Positions 14,667 to 21,580 of a stretch of DNA of 64,000 nucleotides are shown one piece after another. This DNA is from Marivivens geojensis. Lineage in GTDB: Bacteria; Pseudomonadota; Alphaproteobacteria; Rhodobacterales; Rhodobacteraceae. The notes beneath the pieces were generated by a model that saw only the letters and a program-made list of their open reading frames with translations, searched no databases and was not told the DNA's origin. Position 1 is the stretch's first letter; every line of letters begins with the position of its first letter. The stretch is taken from NCBI RefSeq assembly GCF_023540835.1, contig NZ_JALKCU010000001.1, forward strand, positions 806,001 to 870,000, read 5' to 3'. Made by a program: the position numbers and the translations under genes.

Positions 14667-15347
14667 TCACTTCCCGCGCAAGCTTCCGAACCAGCGTTTG
14701 AGGCGGGACTGGCGTTCGGCGACGCCTGCTTCGACGCGGTCCCATTCATCGCCGACTTTGTCCAAGGTCGGGTCCAGTGCCCGTTCGCGGAATTGCAGCC
14801 AGACGGCGCGTAGGAACAGGATGCCTGCCATCAGCGCGATAAAGAACATGATGTTGAACCAAGGGATGATGGTCATGTTCGGATCGTCGATACGCTTGAT
14901 CGAAATCGCGTTCGGGAACACGGTAAAGAAACGGTTCCGCCAGCCGTAGTGCGTGATGCTCACCCACTTTGGTGCTTCGGCGGTCGACGTGTTCTCTTGG
15001 GCCTCACCCTGCAGGTCGCGGCTGTCGAATTTGAAATAAGGCGGCCAGATCCAGCCCGTATCTTCGTTGCGGTAGATCATCACGTCGTTGGCTTCGGCGC
15101 CACGGATGAGGCCGAACAGATAGGTCGGGCGACGCATTACGCTGATGAACTGCACATCGCGGGTCGCGCCATCAACGTTGCCGCTCTCGGCCTGCGCAAA
15201 GAAAATGCGGTTCACAGAGCTAAAGTCCTGACGGATCACCTCGGTGCCTGTGATGCGGGCGATGTCGTGTTGGGGCAGGACGTAATGCAGGAACATGCCC
15301 GCAAACAAAATCACGATGACCCGAACGCCGGTTTTCAGTTTTTGCAT
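14667..15347 (-). CDS. DUF1523 family membrane protein (gene 7 of AAA+ operon)
   Basis: A 226-residue protein I recognise as DUF1523. An N-terminal TM (about residues 8-27, VIVILFAGMFLHYVLPQHDI) leads to a periplasmic domain with the family blocks VEFI-like RDVQFISVMRRP, YRNEDTGWIWPPYFKFDS and WVSITHYGWRNRFFTVFPNAI. A second TM (about 165-185) and a charged cytoplasmic tail follow. Function is unknown. It is last in a seven-gene minus-strand operon centred on an AAA+ ATPase, 7 bp after the preceding small membrane protein. The tail of about 40 residues (RALDPTLDKVGDEWDRVEAG) could contact the soluble components. Confidence 0.85.
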   Translation of the reverse strand: MQKLKTGVRVIVILFAGMFLHYVLPQHDIARITGTEVIRQDFSSVNRIFFAQAESGNVDGATRDVQFISVMRRPTYLFGLIRGAEANDVMIYRNEDTGWIWPPYFKFDSRDLQGEAQENTSTAEAPKWVSITHYGWRNRFFTVFPNAISIKRIDDPNMTIIPWFNIMFFIALMAGILFLRAVWLQFRERALDPTLDKVGDEWDRVEAGVAERQSRLKRWFGSLRGK

Positions 15348-15354
15348 CTCAGCC

Positions 15355-15621
15355 TCAATTCGTCAGATATAAAATTGCCGTCACCAAAACGACGGGCACA
15401 ACATAGACCAGCACGATCAGCTTTTTGCGAAACCCGTGCTCGTATTCGACCATGCCGTTCTCGATATAGGCGGTACGGGCGTCGCTATCACCCCCTTGAT
15501 GATCCTCGGCCCATTGTTTCTCTAGTTTTTCGCGACGGACAGAGCGCGAATAGACCGAGATCATGAAATACAGCAGGGTCGTGATGACGAACCAGACCAC
15601 CAGCATATAGAGAAATTTCAT
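15355..15621 (-). CDS. Small two-TM membrane protein (gene 6 of AAA+ operon)
   Basis: An 88-residue unknown protein with two hydrophobic helices, at about residues 3-24 (FLYMLVVWFVITTLLYFMIS) and 66-86 (KKLIVLVYVVPVVLVTAILY), separated by a charged 40-residue loop rich in Arg, Lys, Glu and Asp. Both termini are probably on the same side. It starts 1 base after the stop of the 448-residue soluble protein and is followed 7 bp later by the DUF1523 gene, so it is a translationally coupled operon member. No family is recognised. Confidence 0.75.
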   Translation of the reverse strand: MKFLYMLVVWFVITTLLYFMISVYSRSVRREKLEKQWAEDHQGGDSDARTAYIENGMVEYEHGFRKKLIVLVYVVPVVLVTAILYLTN

Positions 15622-15622
15622 C

Positions 15623-16969
15623 TTATCGGCCTCTCATCACCGCGCCCCAAGGGCCAACTAAATCAATCACATCGCGTTTTGTGGCGGGACGTGCCGTGCG
15701 TGTATCCTCGCGATGCCCGAACAACCGATCCCGTGTGCCTGCTTTATCAACCGCATATTCGCGGGCAAGGAAATCCGCCACGTAGTCCCGTTTTTCATCG
15801 GGCCATGTTGTGTAGGCGGCATAGAATGCCTCCTTATGGCAGATAAAGAGCTGGCGAATGTCCATCGGGCAAAGCTGCGCCAAGAGCATGTTCACCAATT
15901 CCACATCGTCATGCCGCGCCGCGCGGAGCGTGTAGAAATACGCAGGGTGATTGCTGTCGATCTTTGGCCACGGCCCGCCATCTTCGGCCCAGCGTGCAAG
16001 CGCGGCGAGGCCCTGCCATTCCTCGGGCAATTGCGCCGCGTATTTTCGCCCCAGCGCCCGCAGGTCGCGACGGGTTGCGCCGATCAACCGTTCGCCATGA
16101 CGACTCGCAACCTCGGCCACCATAAAGTCCATCTTTTGGTGCAGGATCGCCGCTGCATCAATGCCACGCGCATCGACCAGAGGTTCAGCTAGATTGTGAT
16201 CCTTCAGGAACTTCGCCACCGCTGTCCGATCTGACACATCTATCACGCGGATCGGGAAATTCCCCGCATCTGCCTGATCCGAAACGCGGATCATTGTCGG
16301 GGGCTGGTCGCCACGGAACACATAGAACCCGCCGAACATCGCAGTCCAAAAGTTCTCTTGCTCAAAAGTCATCTGGGGCAGGGTGACGGGGTTACGGGTC
16401 ACATCGCCAGTTTTCTTCGCCAATCCGATCATCTGCCCGATCAGAACGTCATCCCACCACGCGTCCTTGTCTGATTTGAACCGATCAATCATCCGCCCCA
16501 ACTCTGCCGCCGTGCGGACGGTGCCAGACGTGGTGTCGGCCTCAATCTCGATCTTACGGATATCGAGAAGCTCTTCGGGCCGCGCGGCCCGATAGACCGA
16601 GTTTACCAATTCACCCGCCACAGCGTCTTGGGCGGTGAGCGCGAAAAGCTGGGGTTGGTTCGTGTCGATGAACTGCCGCAAAATCCCGCGCGAGGTCGAA
16701 AATTTTGCGTTCAGGAGGGGCGCGGTTTTCTGATCGGTCGTCAGCAGGATGAACTGACGGTTCACCCCCTCGCGATTGAGGTAGAGGTCATCACCCAACT
16801 CGTCGCCAACTTCGGGCGAATAACCCGACATATCAATGTGGAACTCTGTCAGCGCGGTTGTTTTACCCGTTAGGTGCCGCAGCGCCCGATTGTAGCGGTC
16901 GATCTGCACAGGGCTATCGACGCGGATCAGATTGCCGAACATCAGGCCTTTTTCGATCAACCGATGCAT
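15623..16969 (-). CDS. Uncharacterised 448-residue soluble protein, DUF6638-like (gene 5 of AAA+ operon)
   Basis: A 448-residue protein without signal peptide or TM that I think belongs to DUF6638, a family of unknown role seen in Rhodobacterales. It begins MHRLIEKGLMFGNLIRVDSP. Notable parts are a basic N-terminal half with IDMSGYSPEVGDELGDDLYL, a middle FWTAMFGGFYVFRGDQPPTM, and a helical C-terminal half with HPAYFYTLRAARHDDVELVNMLLAQL, which resembles an ankyrin-like or helical-repeat hairpin (impression only). The start overlaps the upstream small membrane gene stop by one base (TGATG), so ATG 16969 is used. No catalytic motif is evident. Confidence 0.78.
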   Translation of the reverse strand: MHRLIEKGLMFGNLIRVDSPVQIDRYNRALRHLTGKTTALTEFHIDMSGYSPEVGDELGDDLYLNREGVNRQFILLTTDQKTAPLLNAKFSTSRGILRQFIDTNQPQLFALTAQDAVAGELVNSVYRAARPEELLDIRKIEIEADTTSGTVRTAAELGRMIDRFKSDKDAWWDDVLIGQMIGLAKKTGDVTRNPVTLPQMTFEQENFWTAMFGGFYVFRGDQPPTMIRVSDQADAGNFPIRVIDVSDRTAVAKFLKDHNLAEPLVDARGIDAAAILHQKMDFMVAEVASRHGERLIGATRRDLRALGRKYAAQLPEEWQGLAALARWAEDGGPWPKIDSNHPAYFYTLRAARHDDVELVNMLLAQLCPMDIRQLFICHKEAFYAAYTTWPDEKRDYVADFLAREYAVDKAGTRDRLFGHREDTRTARPATKRDVIDLVGPWGAVMRGR

Positions 16970-17298
16970 CACCAAACCGCCTTTTTCCAACGCCGCACGA
17001 GGCCCATCACCGACAAGAGCATCACAGGCCCCCACAAGAGCGTAGAGATCAGCGACAACCGTCCGAAATGTGCGATGGTGTCGGCGAAGTTTCCATTGAA
17101 CAATTCAGAGATCGGAAAGCCTTGGATCAGGTAAAGCACGATGAAATAGCCGATGCCCACGATCCCCATTGTTAGGGTCGACACCAGCGCAATGACCATC
17201 AGCGGCTTTATCCCCTCGGGCAGAACCTTGGCCCAGAGGCGGGGGACGAACCAACCAATCGCCGCGAGGGTCAGCGCAGGGATCAAAAGATCGGTCAA
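16969..17298 (-). CDS. Small three-TM membrane protein (gene 4 of AAA+ operon)
   Basis: A 109-residue unknown membrane protein with predicted helices at about residues 4-20, 33-58 (LMVIALVSTLTMGIVGIGYF) and 82-102 (SLISTLLWGPVMLLSVMGLV), ending in a basic tail (RRWKKAVW). Its start overlaps the ATPase stop by 4 bases (ATGA), and its stop shares one base with the next gene's start, so it is tightly coupled to both. It probably serves as the membrane docking component for the adjacent ATPase (inference). No family is recognised. Confidence 0.75.
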   Translation of the reverse strand: MTDLLIPALTLAAIGWFVPRLWAKVLPEGIKPLMVIALVSTLTMGIVGIGYFIVLYLIQGFPISELFNGNFADTIAHFGRLSLISTLLWGPVMLLSVMGLVRRWKKAVW

Positions 17299-19226
17299 AC
17301 TTTGCCCTCCAGATAGCGACGCTTGGCCTCTTCGCTGCGGCCCAGATCGCGGACCATCGCGTCAATCGCGGCCTCATCCGATTTGTCAGCGTAGCGGAAT
17401 TCACTATCAGCGTAACGGTTGATTTCCTGAAGCACCATGGCGGTGGTAATCGGCTGGCGTAGGTCCTCGATCATCGCCTTTTTGGTGTCGTAGTCCTTCC
17501 ACAGGAACAGCTCTGGGTTCTCCATCCATTCGTCGGGCAGTTCAAAGTCCATGGCACGCACCTTTACCGCATCGGTGATGTTTTTGATCGCGCGGCCCGT
17601 GAACCGTTCATCGGCCTCTTGGATCGCTTTGAGGTAGCTGCCTAGTTTGGCGATGGTGTCCAATTCCCCATACAGACCCGCGATGCGGTCGAAGACCGAT
17701 TTCAGCCCATCCTCATGCGGGCGATTGTGCCCTTCAAAGCTACGGGCCACGGCGCGTTTGATCTCTTGGGCGGAAAACAGATCGTGGTCGCCCAGTGGAA
17801 TGTCGTGCCGTTTGCCCAACAGCAGGGACAGAATGTCGATGTAGTCTTCGCGCGTTTGCGGTCCATCCACGAGGAACCGTGCCCCCGCCCGTTGCCGCAA
17901 GGCATCGTCGACGTTCTCAGGGTAGTTCGAGAACATCCCAAAGGTGCAGTTGCCCCGCACAACCGTATTCGCACCCGCAAAGGCCTCCATAAAGACGGCG
18001 GTGACCTCTTGCTGGCCCGCGCTCGACTGACGGTCGCCGCGTTTGCCTGCGATCTGGTCGATGTCGTCGATCGTGCCAAAGCCGATCACCGACGGGTCGA
18101 GGATCGTGTTGATAAACGCCTTAGCGTTTTGGCCCGATTTACCCTGATAGCTGTCGATATTGTCGATGCCAAAGTTCTGATACCGAAACCCGTAGCCCGC
18201 CACCTGACAGTAGTCGTTCACCAACCCCGCCATCATCTGAATGAGCGTGGTTTTCCCCGTCCCGGGTTTCCCGTCCCCCATAAAGGTAAAGATGAACCCG
18301 CCGAGTTCGGCGAACGGGTTCAATCGGCGGTCAAAGTCATAGGCCATCAGCATCTTGGCCAGCTTCATCGCCTGATATTTTGCGATGTGGTTGCCCACGA
18401 CCTCATGCGGTTTCTTGAACTGCATGGTCAGCGGCGTGCCCTTGGCGCTGCGGGCAGGGGTAAAGCCGTTGATCGTGAACCCCTCGGCCTCAATCCGCCA
18501 GCTTGCCGTGGTAAACGGGTCGAGCCGCGCAGCCGTGCTGGCCCTTGCGGCGACCTTCTCCATCAGGGCCTCAGCGTAGGCGAGGGTGGTCGCGACCAAA
18601 CGTGACTCTGACGTGGCAAAACGGGCGATGTCTTGATCCAGCTCCCACAGCACACCTTGCAAGGCGAGAGGGGCGTTTTCGGTCAGAACCTCATCGACGC
18701 TGCCGATCTCAACCGTGTCTTCGCTGGCATGTGAGGCGAGTGTGAACGACAGGTAAGACGCAAAGACTTGCAATGCGATCAGCGCCTCAGCGGTCAGAAG
18801 TTCCGAAAACTCTGTCGATTTCGCAGCAGGCAATCCGCCCTGCAGGTTTGCACGTTTTAGCTCCGCTAGACCCGTCCGCTCCCCGTATTGATCCGTCACA
18901 GCCAGCGCCACGGCGATCCCACGGCGGAGGCCTTGCAGAACGGCGGCCTGTAGCGGTGAGGTCAGCCCATCCCCCGCCTCAAGCCCGTTGATCCGTTCAA
19001 CCAGCCGCACCCCTTCGCTGCGGGTGGTGCGCTGTGTCACCAGACCGGGGGTCGTGGATCGAAACGCGCGGCGTGTGCCGATGCCAGACGATCTTTCCTC
19101 GGTCGCAGCGGTCGTCGCCCCGATCCGCGGCGCATGATCGAACCCTTGCAGCAGAGAGAGGGCGGCGGGGTAGTGGCTGCGGATGTCGTCTTCGCGCAGT
19201 TCCATCTGTCCGGTGGATTGGCTCAT
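17295..19226 (-). CDS. AAA+ ATPase of unknown system (gene 3 of AAA+ operon)
   Basis: A 643-residue protein with a long helical N-terminal region (about 1-270) and a single AAA+ module. Walker A reads GDGKPGTGKTT (about residue 318), with an unusual extended loop; Walker B reads IGFGTIDDIDQIAG (about 380). Downstream are FSNYPENVDDALRQRAGARF (candidate arginine finger, about 440) and a C-terminal helical lid with FTGRAIKNITDAVKVRAMDF (sensor-2 type). There is no protease, nuclease or vWA domain. It is central to a seven-gene operon and coupled by ATGA to a small membrane protein. The role is unknown; remodelling of a membrane-associated assembly is one possibility. Confidence 0.85.
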   Translation of the reverse strand: MSQSTGQMELREDDIRSHYPAALSLLQGFDHAPRIGATTAATEERSSGIGTRRAFRSTTPGLVTQRTTRSEGVRLVERINGLEAGDGLTSPLQAAVLQGLRRGIAVALAVTDQYGERTGLAELKRANLQGGLPAAKSTEFSELLTAEALIALQVFASYLSFTLASHASEDTVEIGSVDEVLTENAPLALQGVLWELDQDIARFATSESRLVATTLAYAEALMEKVAARASTAARLDPFTTASWRIEAEGFTINGFTPARSAKGTPLTMQFKKPHEVVGNHIAKYQAMKLAKMLMAYDFDRRLNPFAELGGFIFTFMGDGKPGTGKTTLIQMMAGLVNDYCQVAGYGFRYQNFGIDNIDSYQGKSGQNAKAFINTILDPSVIGFGTIDDIDQIAGKRGDRQSSAGQQEVTAVFMEAFAGANTVVRGNCTFGMFSNYPENVDDALRQRAGARFLVDGPQTREDYIDILSLLLGKRHDIPLGDHDLFSAQEIKRAVARSFEGHNRPHEDGLKSVFDRIAGLYGELDTIAKLGSYLKAIQEADERFTGRAIKNITDAVKVRAMDFELPDEWMENPELFLWKDYDTKKAMIEDLRQPITTAMVLQEINRYADSEFRYADKSDEAAIDAMVRDLGRSEEAKRRYLEGKV

Positions 19227-19238
19227 GTCTTTGGCCTC

Positions 19239-20366
19239 TTACTTGTAACTCAACACGCGGCCCGTCGGACTGACCACGAACTTGCGCACATCATCGAACC
19301 CGTCGGGTTTCAATTCAGCGAGCGACTGGAACGGGCGTTCAGGCATGATGATCGACCGCGCCATCGCCGTGGCCCCCGTATCCGCCCCGCGCCCCGCAAA
19401 GGGATCGATCGCGTAAATCTCGCGCTCGACCTTGCCGAACCAGCCTGATTTCACTTCTTCCACGCGGTCGCTGCGCAAGTCCTCTTCGGTCCAGACCAGC
19501 GCCCAGTCTTCGCCCACGGGCGATTTGGCCTTTTCCAGAACCTCGCGCAGAGGGCCAGTTTGCTGGGTAAAGGCGTGGGAATACATCGGGCCGATGTGGA
19601 TGCGCCGCAGCCGTTTGGGGTGCAGATCGTCGAAATCTTCGTCAAAACCTTTGGCGATGGTCAACAGTTTCAACCCGCCGACCGATTGCGCCATGAGATG
19701 CGCCATAACCTCTGGCCAGCGGCGTTCATCTTTGGGGAGGCCGACCTTGCCCGTGTCTTCTAGCTCCATCAGGTAAATTGTCGGCAGGTTGATCTGGCTG
19801 TCATAGACCGCCCAATGCAGGAAATACTGCCGCCGCCCGTCACGATCCCCGCGCCACTGAATGTCGGGATCATTGCGGGACCAGAACAAACCGCCCTTTG
19901 CCAGCTCTTCGTAATAGAGCCGTTGTGACAAGGCATATTGCAGCTTGGTCGGGATTTCTTGGTCCCCGACGATCACCCGCACCATCTGATCCTTGAGCGC
20001 CTCAACGGACGGCATATTCGCCAAATGCCGATCCGCCTGCTGCGCGTCATTCGCCGCCTCAAGGAGTTCGGCATAGACGGGAAACCCGCTCTCGATCCGA
20101 TCAAAGGTCAGCTTGCCCGCATGTGCGGCACGACCAGAGAAATGGTATTTGTACCCCAAGGTCCGAAACGTCAGGTTCAACGCCACGAGGTAGCGCGCAA
20201 TCGCGCTGATCTCGTGCCGCTGATAACGTCCCTCGACCTCCATCACAGCGGCCACTTTGCCCAGATACCCCGTGATCTTTTCGAACTTGTCGAAATAGCG
20301 CCGTGTGACGCGGGTATCTTCGAGCGTGAAGTGATCGAGGGTCAGGTCTGTTTTCCCGTCGCTCAT
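19239..20366 (-). CDS. Uncharacterised 375-residue protein (gene 2 of AAA+ operon)
   Basis: A soluble 375-residue protein of no family I recognise. The N-terminal third is helical (RRYFDKFEKITGYLGKVAAV, then RYQRHEISAIARYLVALNLT). The middle contains GRRQYFLHWAVYDSQINLP and a beta-rich stretch TIYLMELEDTGKVGLP. The C-terminal third (DWALVWTEEDLRSDRVEEVK, SGWFGKVEREIYAIDPFAG) ends with a compact RKFVVSPTGRVLSY. No catalytic motif or TM is seen. It follows the coiled-coil gene by 6 bp and precedes the AAA+ ATPase by 12 bp, so it is likely a partner or client of both. Confidence 0.75.
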   Translation of the reverse strand: MSDGKTDLTLDHFTLEDTRVTRRYFDKFEKITGYLGKVAAVMEVEGRYQRHEISAIARYLVALNLTFRTLGYKYHFSGRAAHAGKLTFDRIESGFPVYAELLEAANDAQQADRHLANMPSVEALKDQMVRVIVGDQEIPTKLQYALSQRLYYEELAKGGLFWSRNDPDIQWRGDRDGRRQYFLHWAVYDSQINLPTIYLMELEDTGKVGLPKDERRWPEVMAHLMAQSVGGLKLLTIAKGFDEDFDDLHPKRLRRIHIGPMYSHAFTQQTGPLREVLEKAKSPVGEDWALVWTEEDLRSDRVEEVKSGWFGKVEREIYAIDPFAGRGADTGATAMARSIIMPERPFQSLAELKPDGFDDVRKFVVSPTGRVLSYK

Positions 20367-20372
20367 CGCAGC

Positions 20373-21452
20373 TTACGGTTGGCCGTAGGCGTTTTTGTCG
20401 TGCTTCTCGACGATCCTTTGGAAGCGGCGCATGAACCGTTCATCGGCCTTTGCTTTTTCCTCAAGCACCTTGCGGGCAAAGACCATGTGATCCTCGTGCG
20501 ATTCCAGCATGTCCGCCATTCGGCTGTTCGTCGCCGCGCCAATGGCGGCCATCGCTTGCTGGGCTTCTTTGTCGGTCTGCACGCCGATTTCGTTGATGCG
20601 GTGAGCAACGTCCTGCTGCTGCGCGGTTTTCAACGATTTCGTCAGCGCATCATACAGGACGACACGTTGGCGCGTATCGGTCATCAGCTTGTTGATCAGA
20701 ACCATCTGCGTCGCCGATTGGTTCTGCAAACTGTCGAGCCACGTTTTGCCCTTCTCGATATACCGCTCCAGCGTCTGGGATTTCGCCAGTTGCACCTGTT
20801 CCTGTTGGACCAGCTCGTTGTAGCGAGAGTTCAGTTCCGCCAGTTCGCTTTCCAGCGCGGTGCGGGCTGCGGCGTCTTGCTCGACCGAGATCTTGTTCTC
20901 GAGCGCGATGATTTTGGGATCAAGCGCCAGAACATCCGCCCGCGTTTTTTCCAGCGCGCTCACGGTGGTTTCCCGTTCGGTCAGCGTTTCCGAGAGGTTA
21001 CTCTCAACCTTGATCTTCTGGTCCTCAAGCACCGCCAACTGACCCTCAAGCAACTTTTGGATCACGTTGGATTTTGAAATCAGGTCTTGCAGTTTGTCGT
21101 CAATCGACGCGGTGCGCATGCGTTCCTGACGCATCGACTCTGCTTTGCCCTTCGAGAAAATCCCGATCAGCTTTTCCATGCCTGTCTTTGACCGCATCTC
21201 GTCAAAGTCTTGCTGGAACCCAGCCGTCACATCATCGAGCCCCATAATCAGCTCTGCGATATTGGCGTTCATCGCGTCCGTCTGCGCATGAACATCGTCC
21301 AAGGTCGCGTTTTCGATATCAATCGTCACATCCGTGCCCGCAGCCATTTTGCTCCGTGCGGCCTCAATACGGGTGGTGAGTTCGGAAATCTTTGCTTGTG
21401 CGTTTACCACTTGGGTTTGGCTCTCGCGGATCTGTGTCTCAAAATCGGCCAT
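20373..21452 (-). CDS. Coiled-coil protein, weakly TelA/KlaA-like (gene 1 of AAA+ operon)
   Basis: A 359-residue, almost wholly helical protein and the first gene of the operon. An N-terminal heptad region (about 1-45) and a long coiled coil (about 120-290, with LEDQKIKVESNLSETLTERE and ALESELAELNSRYNELVQQE) flank a short linker, MEKLIGIFSKGKAESMRQER. The C-terminal helix carries the charged KAKADERFMRRFQRIVEKH. Helix order and the QKLLEGQLAVLEDQ / LERYIEKGKTWLDSLQNQSA pattern recall TelA/KlaA-type tellurite-resistance proteins, but this is an impression, not a motif match. The gene starts 40-60 bp downstream of two inverted repeats that may be its operator. Confidence 0.75.
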   Translation of the reverse strand: MADFETQIRESQTQVVNAQAKISELTTRIEAARSKMAAGTDVTIDIENATLDDVHAQTDAMNANIAELIMGLDDVTAGFQQDFDEMRSKTGMEKLIGIFSKGKAESMRQERMRTASIDDKLQDLISKSNVIQKLLEGQLAVLEDQKIKVESNLSETLTERETTVSALEKTRADVLALDPKIIALENKISVEQDAAARTALESELAELNSRYNELVQQEQVQLAKSQTLERYIEKGKTWLDSLQNQSATQMVLINKLMTDTRQRVVLYDALTKSLKTAQQQDVAHRINEIGVQTDKEAQQAMAAIGAATNSRMADMLESHEDHMVFARKVLEEKAKADERFMRRFQRIVEKHDKNAYGQP

Positions 21453-21476
21453 TGTCTGCCCTCGTTAAAATACGTT

Positions 21477-21520
21477 GTCCTGAATGTAGGACGCCTTTGA
21501 ATTGTAAATAAGACTTATTT
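21477..21520. promoter_or_regulatory. Inverted repeats at the promoter of the seven-gene AAA+ operon
   Basis: The 15 bp inverted repeat AAATAAG-A-CTTATTT (21506-21520) lies 54 bp upstream of the first start codon. A second one, GTCCT-GAATGT-AGGAC (21477-21492), lies 25 bp upstream. Both are in the only long gap ahead of the operon, so they are candidates for operator or promoter structure. The binding protein is unknown. Confidence 0.4.
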
Positions 21521-21544
21521 TGCACTTTTTGAGGAAGTTGCGGC

Positions 21545-21580
21545 AAAAAAGAAAGGCCGGTGAAACACCGGCCCTTTTTT
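21545..21580 (-). terminator. Terminator of the L,D-transpeptidase gene
   Basis: A perfect 8 bp stem (GGCCGGTG / CACCGGCC) with an AAA loop is flanked by A- and T-runs. On the minus strand it ends in TTTCTTTTTTG just after the stop codon. It also isolates the AAA+ operon promoter from upstream transcription. Confidence 0.9.

Follow-up and report, generated by a model that had tools for sequence, protein, structure and literature searches.

A conserved four-gene AAA+ core with variable neighbouring genes in Marivivens geojensis and other Proteobacteria

Results

Seven genes at one locus

We analysed a stretch of 64,000 nucleotides of the Marivivens geojensis genome (contig NZ_JALKCU010000001.1, positions 806,001 to 870,000; hereafter the window, in whose coordinates features are given), in which seven open reading frames (ORFs), all on the minus strand, span 14667-21452 in the program-made ORF list. 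In transcription order they encode a coiled-coil protein (CC), a protein of 375 residues (U375), an AAA+ ATPase (AAA+), a small membrane protein (TM3), a DUF6638 protein, a protein with two transmembrane (TM) segments (TM2) and a DUF1523 protein (Table 1). Four of these, CC, U375, AAA+ and DUF6638, constitute a single four-protein unit as judged by their co-occurrence, order and co-loss, and the gaps between them hold exchangeable genes, mostly for small multi-TM proteins and mainly after the AAA+ and CC genes. The ORF list and the spacings read from the sequence (6, 12, -4, -1, 1 and 7 bp in transcription order) bear out an earlier note on this DNA, which had described seven consecutive minus-strand genes with overlaps or gaps of at most 12 bp.

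Table 1 Features of the seven-gene locus and sequence motifs of its ATPase
Feature	Position in window	Strand	Basis or remark
Core gene 1, CC, 359 residues, coiled-coil	20373..21452	-	Libraries searched gave no significant family
Core gene 2, U375, 375 residues, soluble	19239..20366	-	No Pfam family; AlphaFold2 (AF2) model
Core gene 3, AAA+ ATPase, 643 residues	17295..19226	-	Pfam AAA and motifs
Walker A, residues 317-326, GDGKPGTGKT	18249..18278	-	All but K320 invariant (33 rows of alignment A3, 7 rows of A12)
Pore-loop-1-like motif, residues 358-364, DSYQGKS	18135..18155	-	No change in YQGKS from Rhodobacteraceae to Vibrio
Walker B, residues 383-390, FGTIDDID	18057..18080	-	Alignments
Sensor-1 Asn434 to Arg-finger region R444/R446	17889..17927	-	Alignments
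Slot gene, TM3 family, small membrane protein of 109 residues, TTG start, outside core	16969..17298	-	Commonest occupant of the AAA+-DUF6638 slot
Core gene 4, DUF6638 (PF20343), 448 residues	15623..16969	-	Pfam; AF2 model
TM2, 88 residues, two TM segments, partner of DUF1523, separate membrane module	15355..15621	-	Hydropathy and comparison of loci
DUF1523 protein (PF07509), 226 residues: TM segment, loop of ~140 residues, TM segment, tail	14667..15347	-	Pfam and hydropathy
Terminator-like stem-loop between YkuD L,D-transpeptidase gene (upstream) and operon	21552..21576	-	11-pair stem and T tail

The upstream neighbour encodes, by Pfam, a YkuD L,D-transpeptidase. The terminator that had been proposed to isolate the operon on this side is present as a paired stem with a T tail, and in the same scan terminator-like sites taken together were not clearly more frequent than chance predicts (17 versus 12.5 +/- 3.5); a sequence scan found no sigma-70-like promoter before the operon. 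Pfam families score above cut-off in three of the seven proteins (AAA, E 4.4e-12; DUF6638, E 1e-216; DUF1523, E 2.8e-61, with 206 bits against a cut-off of 23), and none does in CC, U375, TM3 or TM2. NCBIfam, PADLOC and PHROGs returned weak matches only, at the level of the AAA module for the third gene and of the coiled coil for the first, while PHROGs also matched DUF1523 (E 4.9e-5) and, marginally, the two small membrane proteins. Hydropathy indicates no TM segments in the four core proteins and two each in TM2 and the DUF1523 protein; of the three segments ascribed to TM3, two are clear at the threshold used while the third depends on a weaker N-terminal segment.

Four genes are kept and lost together

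With five of the proteins as queries at E 0.001, we searched 149 genomes of the order Rhodobacterales, each from a different species. AAA+, DUF6638, CC and U375 each match in the identical 89 genomes. By our reading of the search listings, no genome matches part of the core only, and in ten numbered genera species with the core stand beside species that lack it. CC occurs in three of seven genomes of the window's own genus. Among 152 stretches fetched, 142 (137 distinct AAA DNA sequences) show all four core genes, and order and strand are kept in every one of them, which exceeds what chance would give. Nine of the remaining ten are short stretches or stop at a contig edge, and the tenth, from Primorskyibacter sedentarius (L241), has ~5 kb with antisense ORFs between AAA+ and DUF6638 (L241:14297-19071). 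We considered and rejected this locus as a core without DUF6638: the gene lies ~5 kb past AAA+, just outside the stretch, provided that C2 of that genome is the same record. By eye, ORFs of the insert look short-chain dehydrogenase- and transketolase-like.

A natural deletion separates the core from its membrane neighbours. In a sister species (G055, locus L072), whose matching DNA is 92-94% identical to the window, the segment corresponding to 17316-21575 is missing, with ~110 unrelated bases in its place and only the 3'-terminal 21 bases of AAA+ left, and the segment 15643-16934 is missing as well, leaving the first 35 and last 20 bases of DUF6638. The YkuD, TM3, TM2 and DUF1523 genes remain open. 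Thus the whole four-gene core was lost through two separate, scarred deletions, and the three membrane genes persist.

Elsewhere in the sample, one of the 89 genomes (G123, locus L064) has the four core genes in decayed form, interrupted by internal stops and gaps and still in order; its genus includes further species with the core and others without it. In many loci among L061, L092-L100 and L086, genes that by eye encode DeoC and a large aldehyde dehydrogenase lie downstream of DUF1523; these neighbours are also present where the core is missing (L086), which suggests one ancestral site.

The core spans Alpha- and Gammaproteobacteria

The view of the core as restricted to Rhodobacterales did not hold: it occurs also in Rhizobiaceae and Vibrio, DUF6638 included. 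Of 299 genomes of the phylum, 24 contain CC and 20 contain U375; the latter comprise ten genomes of the window's family, eight of another family of the class (f10, genus g85) and two others (G397 and G198). All eight g85 genomes have the four core genes in order, and TM2 and DUF1523 were not detected in them. Three genomes of genus g83 have a diverged CC and no other core gene within the stretch fetched, and one further CC match is marginal. In a genome collection CC has at least 540 relatives, the best 80 of which are by title Rhodobacteraceae or unassigned alphaproteobacterial or pseudomonadotal bins.

In a plasmid collection, CC is present in 11 records (Sinorhizobium, Shinella, Rhizobium and Vibrio), all typed as non-mobilizable, and U375 and AAA+ in ten each. 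On a Vibrio vulnificus megaplasmid, annotation and profile scores place CC, U375, AAA+ and DUF6638 contiguously with nothing between them; a V. parahaemolyticus megaplasmid has the same layout, its fourth gene being assigned from position only. A plasmid-borne mfd gene (transcription-repair coupling factor) follows the core on these Vibrio megaplasmids (L272:12295-15756 and L273:12295-15756). In Sinorhizobium meliloti, CC, U375 and AAA+ are followed by an annotated endonuclease, an insertion sequence (IS) element, DUF6638 (identified by profile) and an annotated DUF2333 gene, which occupies the operon end where the window has TM2 and DUF1523. Rhizobium leguminosarum BIHB 1148 (L275:7794-10148) has only a diverged CC and DUF2333 at the corresponding place; the site (choXWV-tdk ... 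fhs) is the one where S. meliloti carries the full core. Given such loci with a diverged CC only (~25% identical; also L183-L185), CC may have a further role of its own, apart from the ATPase. A phage collection gave no match for AAA+ or DUF6638, and in IMG/VR, where the scan requires short exact peptides, none was confirmed for CC or AAA+.

TM2 and DUF1523 form a separate membrane pair

DUF1523 is present in 143 of the 149 Rhodobacterales genomes, with or without the core. Where a DUF1523 copy lies outside the core, profiles place TM2 next to it in 17 of 20 loci and TM3 in four. The six genes other than TM3 stand in order in 57 loci, and the joints from DUF6638 through TM2 to DUF1523 are at most 33 bp in all of them. 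TM2 and DUF1523 are therefore a membrane pair that is attached to the core and also found alone, and this pair is a separate, near-universal module. These results bear on the proposal of the earlier note that all seven proteins form a single membrane assembly or remodelling machine encoded by a conserved, linked operon. Linkage holds for the four core genes, in fixed order and on one strand, and not for the seven as one set; likewise, the comparison of gene order across Rhodobacterales that the note had suggested shows that four genes co-occur and seven do not. All seven are contiguous in the window, and the 57 loci with six genes in order also speak for a larger assembly. Against it stand the presence of DUF1523 regardless of the core, the core without detected TM2 and DUF1523 in the eight f10 genomes and, as far as annotation shows, also in S. 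meliloti and Vibrio, and the distribution of the TM3 family, which occurs in 60 of 120 loci with ORFs in the AAA+-DUF6638 gap and, by tblastn, in 68 of the 152 stretches. As a strict seven-part unit the machine is refuted, and we regard it as very improbable. TM3 in particular, taken to be a fixed member, sits in a variable slot that many unrelated genes can occupy.

The gaps between core genes are variable slots

We defined slots as the CC-U375, U375-AAA+ and AAA+-DUF6638 gaps and compared them in 136 distinct loci. Gene-sized gaps occur in 70, 16 and 119 of these loci, respectively, and ORFs tile the gap from end to end in 51, 11 and 89 of them. In 205 slots, the same-strand ORF chain covers a median of 98% of the gap versus 45% on the other strand, and the slot genes are therefore operonic. 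The 284 slot ORFs fall into 162 families, the largest of which, with 63 ORFs, is the TM3 family of the window. TM3 family aside, and counting families with a member of at least 100 residues, 49 of 92 slot families have two or more TM segments versus 38 of 284 flank families; in a like-filtered comparison at 100-210 residues, 29 of 44 slot families are membrane proteins versus 11 of 127 flanking orphan families (Fisher p 3e-13). One family of eight ORFs (~276 residues; L103:7850-8680) lies in the AAA+-DUF6638 slot in all cases, with two TM segments each by hydropathy, and the one member that we read has, by eye, a long coiled coil. Soluble cargo includes an Mrr-type nuclease, a DEDDh-type exonuclease with BRCT, Fic, AbiJ_NTD4, DUF2971, a DUF559 nuclease and a Phd-type antitoxin; other cargo includes a glycolipid-binding domain and a thioredoxin-like match below cut-off.

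The slots might simply be places where a housekeeping or stress operon tolerates passengers, with slot genes unrelated to the function of the core. Such a reading fits the diversity of the cargo, some of which, such as the glycolipid-binding domain and the thioredoxin-like match, has no obvious link, as well as the antisense ORFs in the ~5 kb between AAA+ and DUF6638 in P. sedentarius and the IS element in the S. meliloti slot. However, membrane proteins are strongly over-represented relative to flanking orphans, gene-sized slots are mostly tiled end to end on the operon strand, and the joints between DUF6638, TM2 and DUF1523 never exceed 33 bp. We consider passengers of this kind a doubtful explanation.

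Alternatively, the operon could be a modular conflict or defence system in which the core, on sensing an invader or cell damage, frees an exchangeable slot effector, usually a small membrane-perturbing protein and sometimes a nuclease or a Fic- or AbiJ-like protein. The patchy presence and wholesale loss of the core inside genera, the hypervariability of the slots and the typical defence genes among their occupants, including all seven soluble types listed above, are in line with this. Nevertheless, despite striking single cases, the flank control gave a similar number of PADLOC hits and we do not claim defence-gene enrichment in slots: 92 slot representatives match 22 models in, by name, about six proteins, and 92 flank controls match seven models in at most eight proteins. 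The phage and IMG/VR results, the non-mobilizable type of all 11 CC-bearing plasmid records, the slow evolution of the core, its frequent persistence in one chromosomal neighbourhood and the lack of matches of the seven proteins to defence families beyond AAA or coiled-coil level also count against a defence role, the boldest of the alternatives, which we judge unlikely.

Properties of the core proteins

The AAA+ protein scores 47 bits against Pfam AAA (PF00004), whose curated cut-off is 21.2, and contains the ATPase motifs; its mean column identity is 78%. From Rhodobacteraceae to Vibrio, at 39% identity, GDGxPGTGKT, YQGKS, GFGTxDDxDQ, the sensor-1 Asn and LRQR are kept. We assigned the motif names by reference to classic AAA proteins. 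At E 0.001, the AAA+ profile finds no match among PDB chains. The earlier assignment of this protein to the protein-remodeller type is supported. Such motifs, along with substrate-engaging pore loops, are described for TRIP13 (PMC4439613).

CC is the slowest-evolving core protein, with a mean column identity of 82% in 34 rows, and its C-terminal third is highly conserved. Three candidate relationships of CC were rejected. Matches to RexA (E 0.0054; two of 20 relatives match) and to LmuB (PADLOC, E 8.8e-6) were judged to be chance matches of coiled coils, and homology to TelA, considered by eye and from weak HMMER matches, yielded an hhalign score of 19.7 versus 18.3 +/- 3.0 (best 26.9) for 60 heptad-block shuffles.

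AF2 models were made for U375 and DUF6638. The U375 model (pLDDT 88, pTM 0.87) has a helical N-terminal half and a beta-rich half with weakly T-fold-like topology; the T-fold is the bb-aa-bb fold common to urate oxidase, DHNA and PTPS. Several T-fold families are among the VIA rows for residues ~175-338, with weak scores of Z 3.6-4.8 (for example, 5yja, Z 4.8, 119 aligned, 3.6 A; 8evk, Z 4.4, 95 aligned, 2.5 A). Foldseek with U375 found nothing in PDB at E 0.001 (best E 0.4), and the best match in a viral library had E 0.0038. The fifth gene of the operon encodes a full-length DUF6638 member (720 bits, positions 1-439 of 439); its model (pLDDT 81, pTM 0.76) has no Foldseek match in PDB at E 0.001, and its VIA rows mostly represent a 44-residue helix pair. 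None of the four core profiles finds a solved relative by sequence at a useful E-value. We do not put forward the folds of U375 and DUF6638 as new.

Discussion

The operon is a composite of a cytosolic four-protein core, a separable membrane pair and slots with exchangeable genes. Altogether, we tentatively favour a model in which a protein-remodelling ring works with CC near the inner membrane and has exchangeable membrane partners. In this model, an AAA+ hexamer would grip a polypeptide with the Tyr360 pore loop and would remodel or disassemble it by ATP hydrolysis; the likeliest substrate or partner may be CC, with its highly conserved C-terminal third, while U375 and DUF6638 could serve as adaptor or scaffold subunits. 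The assembly would act at the inner membrane, and the membrane proteins encoded in the slots and at the operon end might be its anchors, clients or outputs there. Of the membrane-associated assembly or remodelling machine originally envisaged, the model retains the AAA+ of remodeller type and the link to membrane proteins and abandons the seven-part system.

Several observations weigh against this model. Among the 120 loci with ORFs in the AAA+-DUF6638 slot, 24 have only soluble ones, and some slot ORFs may be spurious, given that 54 of 92 representatives passed a GC-frame test. No annotated membrane gene lies beside the core in the Vibrio loci, and a membrane site is not seen there. Finally, CC of the window has no Pfam family above cut-off, and its similarity to TelA is not significant, being at the level of shuffles.

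TRIP13/Pch2, Vps4, p97 and NSF resemble AAA+ in Walker A, Walker B, the sensor-1 Asn, the Arg finger and the pore-loop-1 tyrosine, as we assigned them. However, the PADLOC TRIP13 model matches AAA+ residues 318-472 only (E 1.2e-4); the likeness to TRIP13/Pch2 does not extend beyond the AAA module, and the N- and C-terminal regions of AAA+ match nothing in the libraries searched. Unlike the case of TRIP13/Pch2, no HORMA family was found in the other six proteins of the operon at Pfam E up to 1. ESCRT-III/PspA systems with Vps4-like ATPases are alike in concept in that an AAA+ protein, a coiled-coil protein and membrane proteins share one neighbourhood, but CC of the window has no Pfam PspA or Snf7 match: neither is among the five families listed for it, nor among the 25 that were listed out of 42 for a set of 20 relatives. 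The AAA+/PspA neighbourhoods in the available part of a published study have partners other than those found here (PMC11237479). TelA (PF05816), which occurs with XpaC, is like CC a long helical protein of ~400 residues with one short, similarly placed WE...G stretch; yet TelA is a separate gene in the genome of the window with other neighbours, and the profile likeness is that of shuffles. The TelA gene of this genome (C11, L267:7881-13623) is clustered with genes for XpaC-like, SPFH-like and zinc-ribbon proteins and for a lipoprotein, all named by eye except TelA, and belongs to a separate helical-protein system.

CBASS, Lamassu and the like are defence systems with exchangeable effectors. 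Our operon resembles such systems in its constant core, its variable neighbouring gene and its occasional cargo of nuclease or toxin type, whereas it differs from them in that PADLOC matches are not enriched over the flanks, no phage copy was found and the core evolves slowly. The PADLOC matches of the core proteins themselves (LmuB, as above, to the coiled coil; TRIP13; and IetA, E 0.0093) do not go beyond the AAA or coiled-coil level. By analogy to the way in which immune systems swap effectors, the constant four-protein AAA+ machine might form a previously undescribed modular bacterial system and control whichever small membrane protein or, occasionally, protein of nuclease or toxin type is plugged into the slot, a possibility that we rate as somewhat unlikely.

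Pfam treats DUF6638 as a lone protein whose role is unknown; in our data, its gene co-occurs with three others, and all four are also present in Rhizobiaceae and Vibrio. DUF6638 is not mentioned in the literature searched in full text, whereas DUF1523 is named in four papers and DUF2333 in one; full-text searches for DUF6638 and DUF2333 found no account of the operon, and broader searches yielded nothing on it among the matches listed.

The core has been defined without experiment, and it includes two proteins to which the libraries searched assign no family and three without known function. The species of the window and its sister species constitute a natural deletion pair, and the swappable slot makes the role of the AAA+ protein testable by exchanging the slot gene and following the membrane, CC and phage sensitivity. 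Four proteins that, in the genomes examined, a large family of marine bacteria retains or loses as a set, and for which no function has been described, are a clear target.

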